A DNA stretch of 64,000 nucleotides from Ligustrum vulgare. Lineage: Eukaryota > Streptophyta > Magnoliopsida > Lamiales > Oleaceae. Below, in pieces: positions 18,797 to 60,394 of the stretch. The stretch is taken from assembly GCA_963555705.1 (NCBI GenBank), contig OY743170.1, positions 10,703,096-10,767,095 of the forward strand, read 5' to 3'. Within the stretch, counting starts at the first letter, position 1; every line of letters starts with the position of its first letter. The notes under the pieces are model-generated. The model did not search any database and had not been told where the DNA came from. It saw nothing but the letters and a program-made list of their open reading frames with translations. The position numbers were made by a program, and so were the translations under genes.

Positions 18797-19086
18797 ATGG
18801 CTACTGTTAAAGTCGATGTTGAAATATGGAATGACAAAGGGGATTTCAACATCTGGAGCCAGAAAATACGAGCTTTACTATTTCAAATGAAATGTGCTAA
18901 GGCTATAGATAAGTCCTGGCCCCTTGATATCCCTCAGGACAGACAACTTGAAATGGATGAAATTGCATGGAGTACTTTGTTTTTACACTTATCTGATAAA
19001 GTCATTAGACAAGTAGGCAAGACTAAAACTACTATGGAATTGTGGGATAAATTGGAAGAAATTTATGATACTGTGTCTCTGCCTGA
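18797..19086 (+). pseudogene. gag: copia gag, first half
   Basis: The frame starts MATVKVDVEIWNDKGDFNIW and continues with WSTLFLHLSD and ELWDKLEEIYDTVSLPD, the usual UBN2-type copia Gag (capsid) N-terminus. The chosen ATG at 18797 is preferred over an in-frame ATG 15 bases upstream because MA-x-V starts are usual for this family. The frame is cut after SLPD by the CACTA element. Gag forms the virus-like particle that holds element RNA. Confidence 0.85.
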
Positions 19087-19609
19087 CACTACAAGAAAAA
19101 TAGCATTTTGCAACACTCAAAAAATGTTGCCAAAAGGCTTTTGCAACGTTTGGCTTGGCAACATTTGGCAAGTGTTGCAAATCCCAGTGTTGCCGTAGAG
19201 TAAAAACTTTTTGCAACGTTTTTTGAACGTTGCAAAAGATTGAAATAAACTTTACAATAGACCTTTTGCAACGTTTATTAAGTGTTGCGGTAGACCCTTT
19301 TGCAACGTTTATTAAGTGTTGCCGTAGACCCTTTTGCAACGTTTATTAAGTGTTGCCATAGACCTTTTTGCAACGTTGTTTGAGTGTTGCCGTAAACCCT
19401 TTTGCAACGTTTTTTAAGTGTTGCAAAAACTTTTAACCCAACCTTTTACAACATTTATTGAGTGTTGCCGTAGACCCTTTTGCAATGTTTTTTGAACGCT
19501 GCTATATATATATATTTTAAATATTATTTTACAAATTATTTATAAAACCCAAATTTTTCTAATTACTTCATTAAAATGGTACTTTAAATAAAAAACAAAA
19601 GTAAATATA

Positions 19610-20197
19610 TTATGAATTTTCAAATTCATACAAAATAAAGTCTTGATAATGTTTAACAAATCCACAATACAAAATAACAAATCCACGAATGTCTCTCGAT
19701 TGTAAGAATTTAGGATCAGAAACCATTGGCACCTTCCTTTTTTCATATGCCGCGACGCAAACTTGTATCAACCTTGTAAATGGACTACCAGCAGGATCAA
19801 GATTTCTATACAAAGGGTAGCCAAATATGAATGCAATAATTGATAGAGCCATGACAATTGTTGGGATGCCAAGCCCCCATCCCCATCCAATATTATCTTG
19901 AATATAAACAATTACTGTCATTGCCACTAGTATTGATGCTCCCATGCAGAAATAATACCAATTGAAGAATTTCCATGTTGTGGTTTTCTGCTTAGGATCG
20001 GTTTCATCAAATTGATCGGCCCCAAACACCACCACGCAGGGCCGAATCCCTCCTGAACCTATAGCTGTTAGCAGCAGGGAGATGTAGAGAATGGCGAGTT
20101 GGCCGGAACTGGCTTCTGTACAAACATTATGATTTTGTGTACAAAGGGGAGGCCTTAGTTTGGGCAGAATTGCTGATACTGTCAAGCTGATCATCCC
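19610..20197 (-). CDS. Captured NPF/PTR transporter exon (exon B of chimera)
   Basis: After an acceptor CATGATCAG at 20198, the minus strand encodes GMISLTVSAILPKLRPP, SGGIRPCVVVFGADQFDE, FFNWYYFCMGASILVAM, GWGWGLGIPTIVM and AGSPFTRLIQV. These are hallmark segments of plant nitrate/peptide transporters (NRT1/PTR, NPF) spanning about TM3-TM6 of a 12-helix, roughly 570-residue protein. Homology ends near VSDPKFL about 19700; the frame runs on through CACTA DNA to a stop at 19610-19612. There are no internal stops. In a real NPF this exon follows the one ending ...IIYQI, which is present at 20564-20688. The subfamily is not determined. Confidence 0.9.
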   Translation of the reverse strand, partial: GMISLTVSAILPKLRPPLCTQNHNVCTEASSGQLAILYISLLLTAIGSGGIRPCVVVFGADQFDETDPKQKTTTWKFFNWYYFCMGASILVAMTVIVYIQDNIGWGWGLGIPTIVMALSIIAFIFGYPLYRNLDPAGSPFTRLIQVCVAAYEKRKVPMVSDPKFLQSRDIRGFVILYCGFVKHYQDFILYEFENS

Positions 20198-20509
20198 CTG
20201 ATCATGATTGAGTAATATTAAGCTAATTGTTTGAACATTCAAGTCATAATTTAATTTAAATAAAGATATTGGGCTTAAACTTTTAGATGAAGAGATTTAA
20301 CACGACTCTAGAGTATAAGTTCATTCCATATATAAAAATTGTGCATAAGTCAAGACTTAGATGAAAATCAGATATGAACATAGGGGCGGTTGTAAGCCTA
20401 ATTTAGCTCCTGTTTGAGCCTCATTCTTAAATTTTTTTTTTTTTCAGAATAATTTTTGACCAAATATTATTGCAATGAAATTAATTTTTACAAAATCCTT
20501 TCCAACAAC

Positions 20510-20512
<3 letters not shown>

Positions 20513-20558
<46 letters not shown>
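20513..20558. repeat. (GA)n microsatellite in the captured NPF intron
   Basis: About 23 AG units directly follow the donor of NPF exon A on the minus strand, where they read as (CT)n. Confidence 0.95.
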
Positions 20559-20560
<2 letters not shown>

Positions 20561-20563
20561 AAC

Positions 20564-20688
20564 TATTTGATATATGATAGAAGCAACTGTTATGGTCCAA
20601 AACCTTCCAGCGAATGCATCTGCGACAAACGCGCCGATTAGCGGCGTCAAGGCGCCGATTAGGTGCCAATGGTACTCAAAGTATCTCA
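20564..20688 (-). CDS. Captured NPF/PTR transporter exon (exon A of chimera)
   Basis: Minus strand, following acceptor TATGCTTCTTTTTAG at 20689: RYFEYHWHLIGALTPLIGAF then VADAFAGRFWTITVASIIYQ and I. TPLIGAFVADAFAGRFWTI is the conserved TM2-TM3 loop of NPF proteins. The exon ends CAAATA with a GTTAAC donor at 20563-20562. Joined to exon B it gives YQI-GMISL, the natural NPF sequence, with no phase shift. The part upstream of the LTPLIG core looks changed or was never NPF. Confidence 0.85.
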
Positions 20689-20910
20689 CTAAAAAGAAGC
20701 ATAGGCCCATCAACTTTTACATGCAAATCCAAAAGGGAAACAGGGATACAATTTGAGCCTACAACAGAAGAGATACAAATCTATAACACACTACACCTCA
20801 TATGCCCAAGACAAGAAGAAAACAAGAACTAACAAAAACCCAGATCTTTATAAGGTATATAAACACATGATCAAAAAATAGGAAAAGAAAGTGAGAGATC
20901 TGAATCTAAC

Positions 20911-20959
20911 CGTCCATCTCAACAATGGGATTGGCCACCTTGATCTTTTCAAATGCCAT
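20911..20959 (-). CDS. Captured first exon of cytosolic NADP-isocitrate dehydrogenase
   Basis: The minus strand ATG at 20959-20957 opens MAFEKIKVANPIVEMD, and GACG|gttaga at 20911 is a good donor. Plant cytosolic NADP-dependent isocitrate dehydrogenase begins MAF(Q/E)KIKVANPIVEMDGDEMTR, so this is its first coding exon with native intron start; the enzyme's other exons are absent. The normal enzyme makes 2-oxoglutarate and NADPH in the cytosol. The exon ends in phase 1, and the next good acceptor downstream (20689) opens NPF exon A with TG, restoring a codon. Sixteen residues plus one base remain. The match is exact enough that chance is very unlikely. Confidence 0.88.
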
Positions 20960-21175
20960 TTTTCTTGAATTTATTCTTTACAAATCAAACTGAGCAGTTC
21001 CTTCTGGAAAAATATATAAAATTACAATGAGATAACAAAGATTAAAGCAAAATTATTGGGCAAAGAGAGTGCCAAACTGAGAATTATGCACAGCCGGCGA
21101 AGTCTTGGAGATTACAGAGGACAGAGGATTTAAGAAATGAGAAATCGCCGCTTATAAATATTGAGAAATAAGGTC
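20960..21175 (-). promoter_or_regulatory. Captured ICDH 5' UTR and promoter region
   Basis: On the minus strand a TATA-like TATTTATAAG lies at 21151-21160, followed by pyrimidine-rich leader sequence. A TATATTTTTCCAG acceptor-like site at 21004 suggests a leader intron ending 44 bases before the ATG. The leader runs AAGGAACTGCTCAGTTTGAT up to AAGAAAAATGG. If intact, this gives the chimera its own transcription start. Promoter function is inferred. Confidence 0.55.
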
Positions 21176-22690
21176 TCGTATCCTTATTTTGGCCTTATAT
21201 TGAAATTAATTATATACCAACATGGCAAACATACCACTTTTTGCAACAAATTGAGAAATTTGTAATTCTTGGTGAGGGGTATTCCAGTCAATGTCATATT
21301 TTTGAGATAAAATAAATGGTTAAAGATTGATAAAGAAAATGTATAATCCAAATGAAGGCTAGGTTAAATGAAACATTTTTGAACACATTATATAAAATTC
21401 TATGTCCTACTAGCTTAAGATAAAGTTTAGAAGCCATGAAATAGTAGAATCTGTCCCAAAAACAGAATTCTGATTTTAATCTTTCCAGGTAGAACAGACT
21501 TTGACCCTGATTAGCCTTTTTCACCAAAATATCGAATGAATGATACTATTACTATTTCGAAACCTTAAACTCTGTCCAATTACTGCATCAAAATAAACTA
21601 AATTCACCCGTCCAGGTAAAAAAAATCAAAACAAGTATCAAAATAAACTAAATTCACCCGTCCAGGTAAAAAAATCAAAACAAAAATTTCCGGTTGAGTT
21701 ACTTCACTCAATACAAAATTTCATCGTGAAACCAAGTCCAAGAATACTTCATCCAATAACAATTTCTTTTGCTTTGGCTTGCATGATATTAGAATGAAAT
21801 CTGACAAAATGTGTAATTTGCATTTCTCAACATAGCAAAACAAACTTTCCAGCAGAGTCCAAGAAATAACTCGTTTTCATGCCGAAAATATTTAAAAATC
21901 CAAAATACACAAACAAAGAAATAAATTGAATCCAACAAAAATACTCACCAACCATAATAAAATCAATAATTAAAAAAAATCAAATGACAATAATCCATTG
22001 TATCCAATTTAAATAACATCATCCATATTTCAAATACAACACAATATCTTTAATTGAACACGCCCATCTTCATTCCATCAGCCACAAAAAATCCCAAAAA
22101 ATAATACATAATCAAAATGACGGAATTATATAACCAACCCAATATTTTAAAAAGTACAGAATTAGCAGATGAGACTTATCTCCTGGAGTTGAAAAGAAGG
22201 GCTTTTGGCTGTCTCCTTGTGCCAGCAAACCCTAGACCAATAAGAAGGGCTTTTGGCCGTCTCCCTGTGCCACAGTAAATAAATAGTCAGATGGCAAGAG
22301 AACAACTGCATAAGTCACTCTCTAATCAAACACAAATCAACTTATCCAGGTAACACAAGATCTTACGCTGCGGGTATCAATTCTGTTTGAGCACTGTCGC
22401 GCCCACTTCGTGCCTTCGGTGAATGGACGACGCAGAGGAGGAGGCTGGACGGACTGGGCAGTCGGCGTTCACTGGAGTTGGTCAACGGATTGAGCACTGG
22501 CGAGAAAGAGAGACGAGTCGCGACCCCCGCTGGAATTGAGAGAGGGATGGAATTTGATTGGGTTTGAGAATTGAGGGCTGGATCGAAATGGATATTTGGG
22601 TAAATTGGGGCTGTGTATTAGGTTTAAAGTTTTATAATATTTGCAATTTAGTGATCTATGTTTAAATAATGTTAATTAGCCCCCAAAAAT
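21176..22690. other. CACTA 2 internal DNA, includes a 48-bp tandem duplication
   Basis: No gene is recognised. TCAAAATAAACTAAATTCAC plus its continuation is present twice in tandem at 21588-21684. A second partial duplication, AGAAGGGCTTTTGGC(T/C)GTCTC, lies at 22191-22267. A GC-rich block at 22370-22560 could be further captured DNA or the element's own promoter; its frames show nothing familiar. Confidence 0.4.
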
Positions 22691-22972
22691 GCTATTGCAA
22701 CGTTTTGAGCTATTGCAACGTTTAAAAAACGTTGCAATAGGTAAATCTTTTGCAACGTTTGTAAAACGTTGCAAAAGCTTAATTTAAGTGTTGCAAAAAT
22801 TTCAACTTATCGTAACAATCTTTAAACGTTGCGAAAAGGTACAAATCTTAAAAATATGAACCAAAGGCAACATTCAGTGACTAAATGTTGATGTTGACCC
22901 CCTTTTAGCGACATTTAATTACTAAATGTTTCCGTTTAAGTGTTGCAAAAGCCCCATTTTGTTGTAGTGTGA

Positions 22973-23621
22973 TAAGTGTTTTCTGTGAAAACAATACTTC
23001 TCTTTTAAATTTGATCCATCTAAGGATGTGGATGAGAATATGAGTAGGTTTACTAAGATCACACAGAGTCTTTTAAACTATGATGAAAAACTTACTGATG
23101 AACAAAAGGTTGTTTGTTTACTGAATGCCATGGGGGATAAATTTAAGGATTTGAGGAATGCCTTAGAGTATGGGGGGCAGAAGTTGACCACTGAAATTGT
23201 CCATACTTCCCTTAAGAATAAAGAGTTAGAATTTAAAAGTAATCCTAAGGAAGCCTATAATGTTGTAGGAACCTCTAGGAAGAAGAACTCTTTTAGGCAG
23301 AATAAGTCTGGAACTAATTTCAATAAGAATTGGAATACTTCTAGCAAGAATAGGGATTGCAATAACAAGCCTGCAAAGGGTAATTTTCAGAATAAGGGCA
23401 ATTTCAATAGGTCTAAAGATAATAACTTTAGAGGCCAGTCTGGTTTCAGGAATCAAGACAATAATATTAGAAATCATAATAATTTCAGAAACCAGAACAA
23501 TTTTAGAACACAGGACAATAATGCTGGAACTGCAGATGTAGATAAACCTCCTAGAATTTGTTTTTACTGTGGCCAACCTGGACATCATATTAAATATTGC
23601 TTTAAAAGGAAAAATGACTAG
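22973..23621 (+). pseudogene. gag: copia gag, second half with zinc knuckle
   Basis: After the target duplication the frame resumes with AAGTGTTTTCTG then an in-frame TGA, and continues FKFDPSKDVDENMSRFTKIT, LLNAMGDKFKDLRNALEYGG and an Asn-rich basic stretch. It ends with a CCHC zinc knuckle CFYCGQPGHHIKYC at about 23559-23600. A TAG at 23619-23621 closes the frame; the same frame continues open into protease, so this stop separates gag from pol in this copy. Confidence 0.85.
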
Positions 23622-26600
23622 GGTATTAGTAACCAAACTGGGGCTGCAGTGCAAGATAATAATAATGGGGTGGTTTATGTTACTACTGAATCTGATAATA
23701 AGAATGAATGGATTCTTGATTCTGGCTGCACCTTTCACATGTGTCCTCAAAAGGACATGTTTGTTAATTTCAGTGATAATTGCTTTGGTTCTGTGAAACT
23801 TGACAATAATATTTCATGTGATGTGAAAGGCATTGGAAAAGTTTTGTTACAACTTGAAAATAACAAAACTCTTATTTTAAATCAAACCAGATATGTTCCT
23901 GATTTGAAAAGGAACTTGATTTCACTTGGTGTTTTAGATTCTAAATTTTTTGAGATTAGAATGCATAATGGTTATTTGAGTATTTTCAAAAATAACTGTT
24001 TCATTACTTGTACTCCCAAAATTAATGGGATATATGTACTGAATACCTTACCTGTTTATGCTAAGTCCTTTAATGTTGTGTCTGATTCGAATAAAACTGT
24101 GTTATGGTATAAGAGATTAGGACACATAGGTCAAAAAGGACTTAAATTACTTGAAACCAAAGGTGTATTTGGTAATGATGTGTTGCATAAACTTGATTTC
24201 TGTGAAAAATGTGTGTTAGGTAAACAGAAAAGAAATTCATTTGGTAAAGGTGTTCATAAATCAAATGATGTTCTCGAGTACTTGCATGCTGATTTGTGGG
24301 GTCCTGTTCCTGTGAGTTCTGTTTCAAGTTTTAGGTACTTTCTTCTTATAGTGGATGGCTTTTCTAGGAAAATCTGGGTGCATTTGTTAAAAACTAAGGA
24401 TGCTACTGTGTCTGTTTTCAAAAATTGGATCACTTTACTTCAGAATTTGAAAGAAAAAAGAGTCAAAACTATTAGGACTGATAATGGTTTAGAATTTTGT
24501 AACCAAGAGTTTGATTCTTTCTATAGCACCTTAGGTATTCTTAGGTACAGGACTGTAGCCTACAGTCCACAGCAAAATGGGGTTGCTGAAAGGATGAATA
24601 GGACACTCCTAGAAAGAACTAGGTGTCTTTTACTTGAATCCAATTTGCCTAAAAATTTTTGGGGTGAAGCAATCAAAACTGCTTCTTATCTGATAAATCT
24701 TTCTCCCTGCAGTGCCATTGATTTTAAAATTCCTGATCAAATCTGGAATAATTATCTTCCTGACTTTTCAAAGTTGAAATTTTTTGGGTGTGCTGCCTAC
24801 TCACATCAGTCTGAATCCAAACTTGACTCTAGATCTTTAAAATGTGTTTTTCTTGGGCATGGAGAGGGGGTCAAGGGTTATAGATTATGGGTCAGGGAAC
24901 AGGGAGGTTACAGGGTCATTCTGAGTAGGTCTGTGATTTTTAATGAAAATGTTTTCCCTGTAAAGATGAAAAACTGCTTGATCCCATTAATAAAAAGGAT
25001 TTCCTTATCTCTGAGCTGGGTGCAGACCATTTAGGTGATGAAAATGGTCTGCCCAATACTCATTTTCAGGTGGAGCAACCCCCAGTATCCTAATATCAAA
25101 CTTGAACCTGAACTGGCTGACACAGTGCCACTACCTGGTGACATCTGTGAAGCTGAAACAGACTTAGAAAATTATCAACTAGCAAGGGATAGACCTAGAA
25201 GAGAGATTAGACCTCCTCTTAGGTTTGAGGATCCTGATTTTGTGTCTGCATTTACCTATTCCGATCCTTTAGTTTTTGAACCTGAATCTTTTAAAGAAGC
25301 TGTTTCTTCAAAAGATTCCAAACTCTGGCTTGCAGCTATGCAAGAAGAGATGGACTCACTTCTGAAAAATGGTACTTGGATTTTAGTCAATAGACCTGTA
25401 AATAAAAGGATAATTGACTGTAAATGGATTTTAAAAATAAAGGAAAGTGAGTCTAAAGACATAAAACCAAGGTACAAGGCCATACTTGTAGCCAAAGGTT
25501 TTTCTCAAAATGAAGGGATTGATTACAATGAAATTTTCTCTCCTGTGGTTAAATACACTTCTATCAGAATTCTATTTGCTTTAGTTACACAATTTGATTC
25601 AGAACTTGAGCAAATGGATGTGAAAACTGCTTTCCCTTATGGTTTTTTGGATGAAACAATCTATATGCATCAACCTAAAGGTTTTAAAAAGGGTAGAAAT
25701 TTTGACTTGGTTTGTTTGTTGAAAAAATCCTTGTATGGCTTGAAACAAGCCCCTAAGCAGTGGTATAAGAGATTTGATTCTTATATCCAAAGCCTCAATT
25801 TTCAGAAAAGCAAATATGATTCCTGTTTTTACTTTAAACTTGGTAAAACTGATTTTATATACTTGCTTTTATATGTAGATGACATGCTTATTGTTGGGCC
25901 TAATATGCATGATATAAATGTTCTTAAAACTAAACTGCATTCTGAGTTTGAGATGAAAGACATAGGAAATGCTAAAAGGATACTTGGCATGGATATTTTT
26001 AGGGATAGACAATCTGGAAAATTGTTTTTGAATAAAAAACATTACATTGAAAAGGTTTTAAACAGATTTTGTTTATCTGAATCCAAATCTGTGTCTTTGC
26101 CTTTGCCTGCACATTTTAAACTATCTGTTGATCACTGTCCAAAGTCTGATGATGAAATGTTTAGAATGAAAAATGTGTCCTATTCTAATGCAGTTGGATC
26201 TGTTATGTATTTGATGGTCTATTCCAGACCTGATATTGCTTTTGCAGTAACTGTCTTGAGCAGGTTTATGAGCAATCTTGGTGAATTGCACTGGGAAGCC
26301 ATGAAATGTCTTCTGAAATATTTGAAAGGGTCTGCTAGACTTAGTTTAGTATTTTCTAAAACCAAAAATGATTTCAAACTTAAAGGTTTTGTAGACTCTG
26401 ATTTTGCAGGAAATGTTGATAACAGGAAATCAACATCTTCTTACTTTTTTACTTTAAACTCTTCATGTATTAGCTGGAAATCCCAGCTGCAAAAACTGGT
26501 TGCCTTATCTTCAACTGAGGCAGAATACATTGTTGCCACAGATGCTGTTAAGGAATGCATGTGGTTAAAGGGTTTACTATCTGAAATTTGCTGCATTGAT

Positions 26601-26845
26601 GATTCTGAAGTTGAATTATGTACTGATAGTTTAAGTGATTTACATTAGTGTAAAAATCCTGTTTTTCACAATAGGTCTAAACACGTTGATGTTAAATTTC
26701 ATTTCATAAGGGACATTATTGAAAAAGGCATTGTGAAACTTGTTAAGATTCCCACACAGGTTAATCCTGCAGATGCAGGAACTAAAATCATTCCCACTAA
26801 CAAATTTAAAGATGCTTTGAGTTTTTTAAACTTAGTAGAATTTTG
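23622..26845 (+). pseudogene. pol: copia pol: protease, integrase, reverse transcriptase, RNase H
   Basis: Protease motif WILDSGCTFHMC lies near 23709. The GAG-pre-integrase HHCC region has LWYKRLGHIGQKG and CEKCVLGKQKR. The integrase core shows DLWGP and D-N-G-L-E-F, followed by QNGVAERMNRTLLERTRCLL. Reverse transcriptase has DVKTAFPYGFLDE and the catalytic YVDDMLIVG near 25875. RNase H has SSTEAEYI. One frameshift near 24965 is undone by another near 25090, a TAG occurs at 25032, and a TAG at 26646 interrupts RNase H before KHVDVKFHFIRD. The final stop is at 26843. The enzymes copy element RNA and insert the cDNA. This copy is disabled by a handful of changes only. Confidence 0.9.
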
Positions 26846-52743: not shown

Positions 52744-53637
52744 TTAAGCAAAAACAGAAGTTAAATCCACTCCAAATATCATATTAGATAACACTCCAAA
52801 TCCAAGCTGTCCTACAAGAGAAAACACATTCTTCCCCAAACGCTTACCACCTTGATTATTTGCAGCACCACCCGCTGCCATTTGATTCTGCTGTACAAAG
52901 TTGTTGGGATACACCGGATGCTCGTGCATCTGACCATTGTACGTGTTATAACCAGGTCCAGGTCCAGGTCCAGGTCCAGGTCCAGGGCCATAGCCATACG
53001 GGAATCCATTTGCATAATAACCACCGTATTGCGGCGGGGGCTGAAAAGGAATACCTTGATCATACATGGGGATTCCGCGCTGAGTAGTTTGCGCATTCTG
53101 TGGGGGCTTTTTTGGGCACTGCACAATAGGTACTAATATGCACTCCAGGTGTATGTCAAAATTACAAGCCCGGCACTTGTAACGCCAACCCTTGCACAGA
53201 TCTTTGCAGACAGCGCAGAATCCAGGCAATGAGTTAGATTCCAGTTTCAAGGGGTGGATTTTGTGGAGGGCGTGCTGCAATTCGTTTGGAAATTGTGTGC
53301 AGAGTGGATGCACGTCAAACTCACATTCCTTGCATCTGTAGAACAGCCCCTCGACAGGATCGGAACACAGGTCACAGATACGAGTAACTTGGCGTGTGCT
53401 TTGTGCCTTCCGGATAACCATGGTGAGGGGGTGTCGGTGCATGGTTGAAGAGAAGGTTTGGGGACATGTTCCACAGTATTCGTGCAAGTCGAAATCACAT
53501 CCGTGGCACCGGAATCTTTTTCCGGTTCCTAGAGTTTTACATCCATCACAACGATATTGATCCTGGCCATCAGTCGCTTTCAACTGATGGCCAGGATGAG
53601 TGAAGTGTGTTATGCTCTTCTTTGGCAAAGGAGCCAT
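52744..53637 (-). CDS. DC1 (C1-like) zinc-binding domain protein
   Basis: This is a single uninterrupted 297-codon frame starting MAPLPKKSITHFTHPGHQLK at 53637; an in-frame ATG 72 bases upstream is less likely because the family starts just before the first H. Three DC1 domains follow. The first, about residues 12-58, has C-D-G-C ... F-x-C-x-x-C-D-F-D-L-H-x-x-C. The second (about 68-118) has C-D-L-C, CKECEFDVH and C. The third (about 125-165) has CAVC, CRACNFDIH and C. They hold paired zinc ions and are linked in plants to defence and hormone responses. The C-terminal third is Gly/Pro/Tyr/Asn-rich with a (GP)6 run, then a hydrophobic tail FSLVGQLGFGVLSNMIFGV. No intron or break. This is the only apparently intact host gene here. 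Confidence 0.92.
   Translation of the reverse strand: MAPLPKKSITHFTHPGHQLKATDGQDQYRCDGCKTLGTGKRFRCHGCDFDLHEYCGTCPQTFSSTMHRHPLTMVIRKAQSTRQVTRICDLCSDPVEGLFYRCKECEFDVHPLCTQFPNELQHALHKIHPLKLESNSLPGFCAVCKDLCKGWRYKCRACNFDIHLECILVPIVQCPKKPPQNAQTTQRGIPMYDQGIPFQPPPQYGGYYANGFPYGYGPGPGPGPGPGPGYNTYNGQMHEHPVYPNNFVQQNQMAAGGAANNQGGKRLGKNVFSLVGQLGFGVLSNMIFGVDLTSVFA
52949..52988. repeat. Hexanucleotide repeat in the DC1 gene
   Basis: CCAGGT is repeated about six times in tandem, coding for alternating Gly-Pro on the minus strand; it probably varies in length between individuals. Confidence 0.85.
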
Positions 53638-53800
53638 TTTCTTGATTCCTTCTCCTTTTTTCTCTGTAATGAAGCTTGAAGTTGTCAAGATGAAGCTTGA
53701 AGTTGTCAAGAAGAGGACAATATATGTCTTTATATTGATTGTGATGTTCTATTTCTGTAGCAGGGATTGACTTCATTAATTAAAAACTTGAGATGAGATG
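53638..53800 (-). promoter_or_regulatory. 5' leader of the DC1 gene with a 21-bp duplication
   Basis: On the plus strand ATGAAGCTTGAAGTTGTCAA then G occurs twice in tandem at 53670-53711. On the transcript this is a duplicated leader segment upstream of the likely start; it puts an extra upstream ATG in frame. A TATA-like AATATAAAGAC lies near 53729 on the minus strand. Confidence 0.5.
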
Positions 53801-55866: not shown

Positions 55867-56195
55867 AGATGAAATACAAGAAGAAATCTGAACGAAAATG
55901 TATATAAGCTATGCTTAATTCAAAAGCATAGCAAAAATGGAAAGTATACAGATATTTATATACAGAGAACCTATACATACAAAAATATATGAATACACAG
56001 AAATATATACAAAATGTCTATATCACCCAATGTACGATTAGTTGATCCTTTATTCCACGGTGGAGATGCACTGATGCCATGTGCAATCTGTTGAATTTGT
56101 TAGAGATTAGAAGGATTTAGATATTCTTCTTTTAAGTCAGCTTCCTTGCATTGGTTTCTTGTCTGTCTTGGTCCTTCGAGTTTTCCTTTCTAACA
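55867..56195 (-). repeat. 3' LTR of copia 2
   Basis: On the minus strand starts TGTTAGAAAGGAAAACTCGA and ends CTTGTATTTCATCT. It lacks 19 bp present in the 5' LTR near 60690. Confidence 0.92.
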
Positions 56196-59100
56196 CCCCC
56201 CCGTCGAGCTGGAGATCGTTTCAATAACTCCAAGCTTGTCAGCAAATACAAATGTCTGGAGTGATTAAGAGTTTTGGTTAAAATGTCTGCAACCTGGTCA
56301 GCAGTAGGAACGTAACCTATACTTAGTTGTTTCTCAAGAATTTTGTCTCGAACAAAATGCACATCCAATTCTATGTGTTTTGTTCTAGCATGGTATACAG
56401 GATTAGATGCTAGAGCACTTGCTCCTAGATTATCACACCAGATTTTAGGAATACCAGTCTGCGTAACATTGAGTTCTTTTAAAAGGGATTGAATCCATAC
56501 AATTTCCGCTATTGTGTGAGCTAACGCTCTATACTCAGCCTCTGTGCTTGATCTTGCCACTACTTGTTGCTTCTTAGAACTCCAAGAAATCAAGCTATCA
56601 CCCAAATACACACAATATCCTACAGTTGACTTCCTGTCATCCGGACATGATGCCCAATCCGCATCTCCATATGCATTAATGCTCAAGTCACTTGTTTCCT
56701 GGATAATCAGTCCCAAATCAAGTGTTCCTTTAATATATCTAAACAACCTTTTAAGCAAACTCCAGTGCACATCAGTAGGATTTTGGAGAAACTGACTAAC
56801 TCTGTTGACAGCAAATGAAAGATCTGGCCTTGTGTGTGTAATACTCGGCTTTATATGTTCAGCATTAAATCTCTTTAGCACATCAACATCATACCCTCTT
56901 TGTGACATATACAGTCCTATCTCATCTCTATAAAATTCAATTCCCAAGAACTTCTTCAGGTTTCCCATGTCCTTCAATGCAAAGCAAGTGTTCAATTTAT
57001 CAATCAGTTCTTGCAATTTTTCTTTGCAATTTCCAGTCAAGATGATATCATCTACATAAATTAGTAAGTATATCACATGTTTCAATGATGTCACATAAAA
57101 GACTGAGTTATCTTCCTTAGATTGTTTGAACTCCCACTCCAACAGAGTTTTCTTAATGTTTCGTGCCATGCCCTTGGGGCTTGCTTTAGGCCATACAAAG
57201 CTTTATTCAACTTACATACATATGAAGCTTTATTTTTATCAATGAACCCCTGTGGTTGCTCTAAGTACACAGTCTCCTCAACTTTTCCATTAAGAAAGGC
57301 ATTATTAATGTCTACCTGCCTAATTATCCACCCCTTAGACATTGCAACCTTGAGAATAATCTTCAGTGTAGGAGCTTTGGAAACAGGACTAAACGTCTCA
57401 TAATAATCTATGCCATGTGACTGCAAGTAGCCCTTAGCAACCAGCATAGATTTGTGCCTTACAACCTTCCCCTCTGAGCCAGTCTTAAGTTTAAATATCC
57501 ATCTACTTCCAATCACTTTCATATTTTGCTCAACTAGTACAAGAGTCCATGTTTGATTTCTTATTAGTGCATCATACTCTTCTTTCATTGCTTCAATCCA
57601 TTTTTCATTCTTTAGAGCTTCAGTGACATTCTCTGGTTTTGTGTTGTCCAAAGAATTTATTCTAACTGCAGTGAATGCTTTTGGTTTAAATACATCAGCT
57701 TTAGCTATAGTTATCATGTGATGACCCCTTTCATGCATATTGTTTGTCTCTTCAGATATACTTGCTTCATCATTTCCTTGAGTTCTGCTCTCATCAACAC
57801 TGTCAAACTGTGGCATTGACTCACTTATTCCCTCAACTTCTGTTCTGACTCTATCTGAAACATTATCAGTATTATCCATACTTCCATTGCCTACGTCTTC
57901 AGGAATACCTTGTGCTGAGTCAGCAAGAGACAGTAATATATCTGCTGAGTCTCTAGTAAGGCTTGAAGTATGAAGATCAAAAGGTAAAGGATGAAAGGAT
58001 ATTGAACAGTCTTTAGCTTGTGCTGATTTGTTTAGAAACCCTTCCTTAAATGGGAAGTGATTTTCATCAAACATGACACTTCTGGAGATATAAATCCTAC
58101 CACAGGAATTAATGCATTTGTATCCCTTATGACTGACACTTGGTTCAAGGTAAACACACTTTTGGGTATGAAAGTCGAATTTATGTTTTTGATAAGGTCT
58201 CAAACAAGGATAGCAAGCACAACCAAACACTTTAAGTTGATGATATTCAGGTTTTTGGTTAAAAAGGAGTTCAAATGGAGAATTTTGTTTGAGAAGTGGG
58301 GAAGGCAGCCTGTTGATGAGATAAGTTGCTGTAAGAAAAGCCTCCCACCAGTAGAACAAAGGCATGTTTGCCTGAGCTAAAAGGGTCAGTCCAACCTCAG
58401 TTATATGTCGATGTTTTCTCTTAGCTCTGTTGTTTTGAGCTAAGGTATATGGACATGAGAATCTAAGTTGAATACCAGATTCAGAGACAAGTTTAGTTAA
58501 GGCTTTATTCTCTCCTCCACAATCAAATTGAAGAGCTTTGATTTTTCTTTCAAACTGATTTTCTACAAGTCTTTTAAAGGTTAAAAAGTGATGGAGAACT
58601 TCAAACTTGTGTTTAAGTGGATATATCCAAGTATATCTAGAGTAGTCATCGATGAAAGATACATAATACTTAAATCCTGCAGTAGAATTAATAGGGGATG
58701 GTCCCCAGAAGTCTGAGTGAATAAGTTCAAGCGGTTTGGATGCATGAGTTGTGGATAGTTTAAATGGTGCATTGTTTGATTTACCAAATTGACAGGCTTC
58801 ACAGAATAAGAAATTTTTATTCACGAATTTGAAGCTGCTGTTAGACATGACTCATTACAAACGCATGAGGGTGGCCTAGTCTCCTATGCCATTTCTCTCC
58901 CTCTAGACACATTTTATTGACATTGACAGAACTAGATCACTCTTGTAAGATGGAGTTTAGGCAAAAGTTTGGATTGCTGGTATTTTTGTAGTAGTTGGAA
59001 CTTGAATTTGGAGGTCTGGTGTTGAGACTCAGCTGGTATAACCCATCTCTACGCTTCCCCTGCACTAAGTTCCTCCTTGTTTGTAGGTCCTTCACAACAC

Positions 59101-59300
59101 AACGGTTAGGGAGAAATTCAACAGATACTTCATTATCAGACATCAATTTAGATACACTTATGAGATTCTTTTTTATTTTAGGCACATGCAGTAGTTCTTT
59201 CAATTTAAGTGACTTCTCATGATCAACATCAAATATTCTAGTGCTAGTGTGAAAAATTTGTAAAGGTGTACCATTACCAACAAGCATTTTCTATTTACCT
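56132..59300 (-). pseudogene. pol: copia 2 pol: protease, integrase, reverse transcriptase, RNase H
   Basis: Going down the minus strand: protease active-site remnant YIDSGVQHQTKKM (about 59340); pre-integrase CEACQFGKSNNAPF; integrase SDFWGPSPINS, then NNRAKRKHRHI (E-R-K-H-R changed). Reverse transcriptase shows QVDINNAFLNGKVEETVYLE and, after a frameshift near 57150, catalytic YVDDIILTGN. RNase H shows SSTEAEYRALAHTIAEIVWI and DQVADILTKTLNHSRH. Between KRFNAEHIKPS and THTRPDLSFAVN about 40-50 residues normal for the family are deleted. The protease-integrase part is also split among frames. Non-functional. Confidence 0.9.
56196..56204 (-). other. Polypurine tract of copia 2
   Basis: The minus strand reads ACGGGGGGG immediately before the TGTTAG start of the 3' LTR. 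Confidence 0.8.
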
Positions 59301-59459
59301 TCATACTCCTTAGCTCCTATAACATCTTCTTTGTCTGATGTTGTACTCCTGAGTCAATGTACCGCGCCTGATCCTGCACAGTACCTGGACTAGCCATAAA
59401 AGCAGCTGGTTGACCACTGGCGTTTTGAGTGTGATATCTGCCTACTGTGTGTGGCTGCT

Positions 59460-60394
59460 CATCATACCTATTGAAACACCACTTGGCTATGTGATTGTTC
59501 ATCCCACATATCTAACAAGCAAGTCTGATTTCATTTACTCTACCTGCTCTTCCTCTTCCCCTGAATCTTCCTCTAGAGTTAGACATCCTTCCACCTCTAT
59601 AAGTTCTTCCACTGAACGAGTTTGACCTTTGTGAGTTCTCCTGTGCCAGATTAATAGAACCAAAATTGTTCCTAATCTGACTTAAATACTCCAGACGACT
59701 TTCATAAGTCATAAGTATGGATGATACTTCATGCCATGTTACTTCCTCTCTGCTGTTTATTTGAACAACAATTGTAGTATATTCATCATCAAGTCCAGCA
59801 AGGACTTGCGTAATCAAATTATTGTGCTCAATCTTCTTTCCCGCAACCTCTAAATTATCAGCCAATTGTTTGACTGTGTTGAGATATTCATCCATTGACA
59901 TTGACCCATTTCTGGTCCTTTGCAATTCAGAAGTAAGAAATGTAACTCTCGATCTGTTAAGGATTCCATAATTCTCATTGATCGCCTTCCATAGCTTGCT
60001 AGAAGTATCACACCCCATAACACGCATGACAATTTCAGATGTCATTGAAGAATATAACCATCTCATTAGTAATTGTTCCACAGACAACCAGTTACAATAT
60101 TCTGGATTTTATATCCTTTCAACAGATGTTCCTGTCTCAGTAGTTACCTGAGTACTTAGATATTCAGCCGGACACTCTTTGGTTCCCAGGAGAAAGCCTT
60201 CCAGGTTGTGGCCTTTAATGATAGGCATCACAATGTTTTTCCACAAGAGAAAGTTATTTTTGTCTAATTTGACAGATGGTATTTACGTCAGATTCATTCC
60301 AAATGGGGGTGAATTGATTAATGGAAGAATGATTCTGGGTTGTGGAACTTGAACCTGAGGTGGGGAACGAGTTGTTTGGATTTGTGTTTGCCAT
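59460..60394 (-). pseudogene. gag: copia 2 gag with zinc knuckle
   Basis: ATG at 60394, two bases past the primer site, opens MANTNPNNSFPTSGSSSTTQ. A frameshift then leads to KLDKNNFLLWKNIVMPIIKG, HNLEGFLLGT, a stop near 60117, and LSVEQLLMRWLYSSMTSEIV, LQRTRNGSMSMDEYLNTVKQ and an Arg/Gly-rich tail. The zinc knuckle reads C, stop, ICGMNNHIAKWC, where a TAG replaces a sense codon (likely Gln) inside the CCHC motif. Confidence 0.88.

Follow-up and report, generated by a model that had tools for sequence, protein, structure and literature searches.

Background

Gene-carrying CACTA transposons are already known, and the merit of the locus described here is the completeness of its history within one genome. 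The soybean CACTA element Tgm-Express1 is described as containing five host gene fragments (PMC1947982); from maize and Arabidopsis, Pack-CACTA elements are described whose DNA comes from several loci (PMC8903248, PMC13317346). A tandem-insertion model has been proposed for the Arabidopsis Pack-CACTA elements, as set out in PMC8903248 and PMC13317346. The Pack-TIRs of animals are attributed in PMC8277862 to gap filling or FoSTeST, and the same report calls these mechanisms worth exploring in plant Pack-MULEs.

The element studied here lies in a window of 64,000 nucleotides from Ligustrum vulgare (C3:10703096-10767095), and related sequences were searched for in the genome of 1.38 Gb. It is probably a Pack-CACTA element that gained pieces of two donor genes by capture in gap repair and afterwards transposed, and whose captured coding sequence is drifting and not maintained. 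The coordinates are collected in Table 1.

Table 1. Features of the window element; the left and right parts of the backbone are named in element orientation.
Feature	Position in the window	Strand	Remarks
Non-autonomous Pack-CACTA element	19087..22969, 3883 bp	(-)	CACTACAA/TTGTAGTG ends; right end common with L036
Target site duplication TGA, one side	19084..19086		
Target site duplication TGA, other side	22970..22972		
CACTA backbone, left part	21346..22969	(-)	Common to capture-free siblings
Captured ICDH promoter and 5' UTR	20960..21345	(-)	TATAAG about 197 nt upstream of the ATG
Captured ICDH exon 1, ATG to donor	20911..20959	(-)	
Captured first 240 nt of ICDH intron 1	20671..20910	(-)	Holds acceptor-like AG 20690-20689
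17-nt filler, ICDH/NPF junction	20654..20670	(-)	Partly resembles nearby NPF sequence
Captured 3' part of NPF exon	20564..20653	(-)	90 nt
Captured NPF intron	20198..20563	(-)	
Captured 5' part of following NPF exon	19707..20197	(-)	
17-nt filler, NPF/CACTA junction	19690..19706	(-)	
CACTA family sequence supplying last codons and stop	19610..19689	(-)	
CACTA backbone, right part	19087..19689	(-)	With subterminal repeats

The transposon and its insertion site

The sequence-only reading had described perfect ends and a TGA duplication. The direct TGA repeats and the CACTACAA/TTGTAGTG ends are present, and the CACTACAA-type terminal inverted repeats are perfect over the outer 8 bp at both ends, the perfection not extending beyond these. 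Subterminal TTTTGCAACGTTT-like repeats lie close to both ends. In the Pfam scan, which covered four frames of 50-84 residues in the left part and the fusion frame, no transposase was found: the four frames gave no match and the fusion matched a transporter family (see below). A further locus (L036) that matches the right end at 82% carries a TNP1/EN/SPM transposase (Transposase_23, E = 3.4e-05, 24 bits, cut-off 21). Since this locus shares the right end, its transposase match settles the assignment of the window element to the CACTA (En/Spm) superfamily. Duplications of 3 bp recur across the family: TGA in the window, AAT in a second copy on C11, and TGT, TAT, ATA and TAG in four siblings. The backbone stretch 21346-21461 (115-bp) is also found at six places on C7 (9.7-10.2 Mb, 87-90%), as if it came from a tandem gene family.

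The element has inserted into a copia retrotransposon, since a frame in the scanned right flank matches Retrotran_gag_2 (5.2e-12); this host, at 22989-26648, has gag and integrase domains within long open frames. Elsewhere in the window, minus-strand frames at 56132-60108 resemble by eye another copia element, and a 334-residue frame on the minus strand at 52744-53748 with C1 domains (C1_2, 2.7e-27) is likely a host gene.

Donors of the captured sequences

The genome search with 20860-20980 found eight places: the window itself, the C11 element and a gene on C1 at 98% each, and five less similar sites (80-91%). The alignment of the element with the C1 gene (L030) has three blocks (97% over 59, 94% over 88, 89% over 546 columns, gaps included), which extend over the promoter and exon 1 and 240 nt into intron 1. 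The later exons of this gene read as ICDH, with GDEMTR in exon 2; one of them scored 3.6e-05 and 23.6 bits against Iso_dh, below the 27-bit cut-off, and a second gave no match in the Pfam scan. On these alignments the ICDH donor is the NADP-ICDH gene on C1. The earlier assignment of an ICDH exon 1 with ATG at 20959 and GT donor at 20910 holds, its identity resting on the C1 alignment and on the later ICDH exons. So does that of a captured promoter, as the ICDH promoter region aligns with the C1 gene and has a TATAAG before the ATG.

The donor promoter has about 0.65 and 0.15 kb of extra sequence between the aligned blocks (L030 3866-4517 and 4606-4752), both absent from the element. Because these stretches are flanked by short direct repeats (ATTGAC/ATTAAC at the first, ATAATTAAT at the second), the element appears to preserve a promoter that predates two insertions, and the captured ICDH promoter may be the older, pre-insertion form.

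For the second capture, the genome search with 19560-20700 led to C3, where an NPF gene at 60.85 Mb aligns at 93% across 954 columns (E = 0), and to paralogues on C21 and C12. The protein that matches the fusion best is an NRT1/PTR protein of Olea europaea (84% identity, 77% of the query covered), and several of the 120 listed protein relatives, the best 120 of 469, are named NPF3.1. By these matches the NPF donor is an NPF3.1-like gene on C3, so that both donor genes stand elsewhere in the genome. The captures are beyond chance.

The NPF donor at 20563 and acceptor at 20198 agree with the intron of the NPF gene, as had been proposed. The limits of the exons around it were drawn too widely. 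Within 20688-20564, taken before as an NPF exon, only the 90 nt of 20653-20564 are NPF, and the candidate that the whole stretch is NPF was rejected since 20688-20671 are 18 nt of ICDH intron and 20670-20654 are 17 nt of filler. Likewise 20197-19610 is NPF exon as far as 19707, followed by filler (19706-19690) and CACTA family sequence (19689-19610), and the final residues of the fusion were rejected as NPF because the last 31 codons are filler and CACTA sequence. The "strong acceptor" at 20689, said to open the first NPF exon, proved to be ICDH intron 1 sequence that is present in the C1 donor, and it was therefore rejected as an NPF acceptor. The C1 gene carries the identical CTTCTTTTTAGTGAGATACTTTGAGTACC at this site and its native exon 2 starts about 250 nt beyond, so the native ICDH gene is expected to skip this AG.

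Joints and capture-free siblings

At the left joint a TATA (21345-21342) is common to backbone and ICDH, a microhomology of 4 nt. At the middle joint ICDH stops at GAGTACC and is followed by 17 nt of filler and then NPF; the filler partly copies CTAATCGGC, which recurs 12 nt into NPF. The last NPF sequence at the right joint is CCTAAATT, followed by 17 nt of filler and then by CACTA sequence, of which 19689-19610 belongs to a 130-bp stretch found at at least 35 further genomic places at 96-98%.

Beyond the C11 copy, five backbone relatives were fetched whole or in part (L034, L057, L058, L059 and L060), and no ICDH or NPF match was found in any of the five. All but L060, which has no element ends in the fetched stretch, have both ends and their 3-bp repeats. 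At the position of the window captures three siblings have 849-854 bp, which indicates that about 850 bp of backbone were replaced by the captures. The four siblings with both ends also carry a fragment reading like ELAKEATTVRRVLEPLFNCFDTENYWSPEKGI (L034 2739-3089), which the window element has almost wholly lost, with about 20 bp in its place. It is open over the displayed stretch in L034, L057 and L058 and has one stop further on in L059. It looks like an ARM-repeat host gene, and Pfam gave an ARM family at E = 0.062 only. The fragment is possibly an older host gene capture, and gene capture may have occurred more than once in this CACTA subfamily.

Internal replacement, microhomology and filler, with sequence from two unlinked donors, fit template switching in gap repair. 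In the most probable course of events a member of the CACTA subfamily would have lost about 850 bp of its interior, and the repair would have copied the promoter, exon 1 and half of intron 1 of the ICDH gene as well as an exon end, the intron and the start of the next exon of the NPF3.1-like gene. The template switches would have left the 4-nt microhomology and the two 17-nt fillers. The composite would then have transposed, with two copies in different target duplications surviving, and its chimeric frame would have drifted, the 253-residue frame in the window requiring the ICDH intron AG, and frames of 230 or 219 residues AGs of the NPF exon. A similar map could result from sequential captures or from two tandem elements moving together. 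The tandem-insertion route, by which neighbouring elements and the host DNA between them move as one, has the merit that the left and right parts of the backbone could derive from two elements. With the donors on different chromosomes it needs two rounds, and the microhomology and filler agree with template switching of the kind reported for animal Pack-TIRs (PMC8277862); we consider the tandem-insertion route unlikely. Of the Pack-type exon shuffling proposed from the sequence, the capture itself stands on the donors, the second copy and the siblings. Clean exon shuffling is unsupported, because the breakpoints lie in an intron and within exons and the acceptor needed for the join is itself intron sequence.

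The second copy

The search for the chimera at other loci found one other copy, on C11 at 28.50 Mb, of 3842 bp with AAT/AAT repeats and the same captures. The two insertions have differing duplications and identical joints except for a 21-nt deletion in C11, and the composite therefore moved as a unit after the capture. The shorter middle joint of C11 was rejected as the ancestral form since the window copy keeps 12 nt of NPF that C11 is missing; the 21-nt difference is therefore most simply a deletion in C11 between 11-nt repeat copies.

The long frame is lost in C11. Because of one additional T past the acceptor, the frame spliced at 20689 stops at codon 21; a loss of 127 nt in exon B shifts the frame, 21 nt are absent from the middle joint, and TAA replaces TTA near the end. 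Decay of the captured exons in other copies, which the sequence-only reading had named as evidence against itself, is thus largely what the only other copy displays, with 150, 135 and 124 residues still possible as the longest frames from the 13 AG sites. The acceptor is a tandem AG (TAGTGAG; 20688-20685 in the window), and in C11 the second AG, 4 nt on, would restore the frame after the additional T and give the 150 residues.

The fusion frame

Joining ICDH exon 1, 20688-20564 and 20197-19610 reproduces the single open frame of about 253 residues that had been claimed, with its stop at 19612-19610. Of the 253 residues, ICDH exon 1 supplies 16, NPF about 194, and the ICDH intron and filler between them 12; filler and CACTA sequence supply the last 31. 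The glycine at the ICDH exon joint becomes a valine. The fusion scores PTR2 at 2e-46 in Pfam, with MFS_1 below the cut-off.

Thirteen AG sites lying between the donor sites of ICDH and NPF were tried in both copies. In the window copy three of them give long fusions, 20689 (253 residues) and two AGs within the NPF exon, 20620 (230) and 20587 (219), so that 20689 was rejected as the sole source of a long frame. The other ten give 20-76 residues, a skip to 20198 gives 39, retention of intron 1 gives 17 and retention of intron 2 gives 97. The share of pyrimidines upstream is 0.71 at 20689, 0.76 at 20759 (43 residues), 0.53 at 20620 and 0.41 at 20587, and compared with the other AG sites 20689 is therefore a fair and not an outstanding site. 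In a simulation of 20,000 random junctions with acceptor 20689 fixed, 25.5% left the fusion open and in frame through exon A. The open frame is not beyond chance, and the additional AG sites raise the chance further. As about a quarter of simulated junctions are open and the frame of the sister copy is lost, a single copy with an in-frame fusion is weak evidence of a new gene.

These results bear on the reading as a young working gene, in which the captured ICDH promoter would drive a spliced NPF fusion encoding a membrane protein of 219-253 residues. TATA box, ATG, NPF splice sites and open frame are all present, the fusion scores as PTR2 and three of the 13 AGs lead to long frames. Against this, ten of the 13 AGs, the skip to 20198 and the retention of intron 1 all yield short products, the site with more pyrimidines than 20689 gives a short frame, the sole other copy reaches at most 150 residues, only about 194 NPF residues are retained, and five short strings from the ICDH start, the fusion joint and the tail are absent from the 120 protein hits listed out of 469. 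Together with the codon changes on the captured branch described below, this makes a working gene highly improbable. We would give slightly less credence still to a gene on the move, in which a housekeeping promoter and start codon are carried along, the intron AG has been made a real acceptor and an expressed fragment interferes with the NPF donor. If it were true, the stages of its birth (donors, capture-free siblings and a decaying sister) would all stand in one genome.

Divergence and selection

Divergence was estimated from 1410 aligned bases in four blocks, with 272 gapped columns dropped in which 6 further differences between window copy and donor lie. Both copies share 34 differences from the donors, some of them in a CT repeat with uncertain alignment; the window copy alone has a further 14 and C11 alone 8. 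The two copies are 1.6% apart and lie 3.4% (window copy) and 3.0% (C11) from the donors, which makes the capture about twice as old as their split.

The NPF part of the window copy has no stop and differs from its donor in 11 of 193 codons (6 nonsynonymous, 5 synonymous). With the C21 paralogue as outgroup the captured branch has 4N:1S and the donor branch 1N:3S, with 1N:1S unresolved; A145V was assigned to the captured branch (where the script tally was 3 and 1) because the outgroup likewise has alanine. All four amino-acid changes on the captured branch are C>T or G>A. Donor and C21 paralogue differ by 13 nonsynonymous and 28 synonymous changes, and the Fisher test of 4N:1S against 13N:28S gives p = 0.055, or 0.086 when the unresolved codons are added. 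The codon changes thus point to a loss of constraint without proving it, and the captured coding sequence is most likely drifting and not maintained.

A regulatory role, in which small RNAs from the ICDH and NPF pieces would act on the donors or silence the element, could draw on the closeness of the captured pieces to their donors (3.0-3.4% substitutions) and on 8 of the 14 window-private substitutions being C>T or G>A, the type of change that methylation promotes. In C11, however, only 3 of 8 private changes are of this type, and only some of those in the window copy stand in CG context, so we regard such a role as improbable.

Discussion

The window CACTA element brings microhomology and filler together in a plant, and it is a well-resolved example of how a CACTA element gains host DNA, since with the donors, four siblings and a second copy its joints can be read base by base. 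It resembles Tgm-Express1, as described in PMC1947982, in being a CACTA element with exons and introns of several host genes and with chimeric frames. Transcripts of Tgm-Express1 were found there by RT-PCR, starting at the promoter of the gene into which it is inserted; the window element differs in carrying a captured promoter and in sitting within a retrotransposon. With the Pack-CACTA and Pack-TYPE elements, as PMC8903248 and PMC13317346 present them, it has in common the CACTACAA ends, the short target duplication and captured coding DNA, sometimes from more than one locus. What sets it apart from these is that a single genome contains both donors, a second copy and siblings free of the captures, and that the captures occupy the place of about 850 bp of sibling backbone. 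The animal Pack-TIRs of PMC8277862 are similar in their internal breakpoints, with microhomology at one and new sequence at another, whereas the window element is a plant element in which two unlinked donors lie adjacent.
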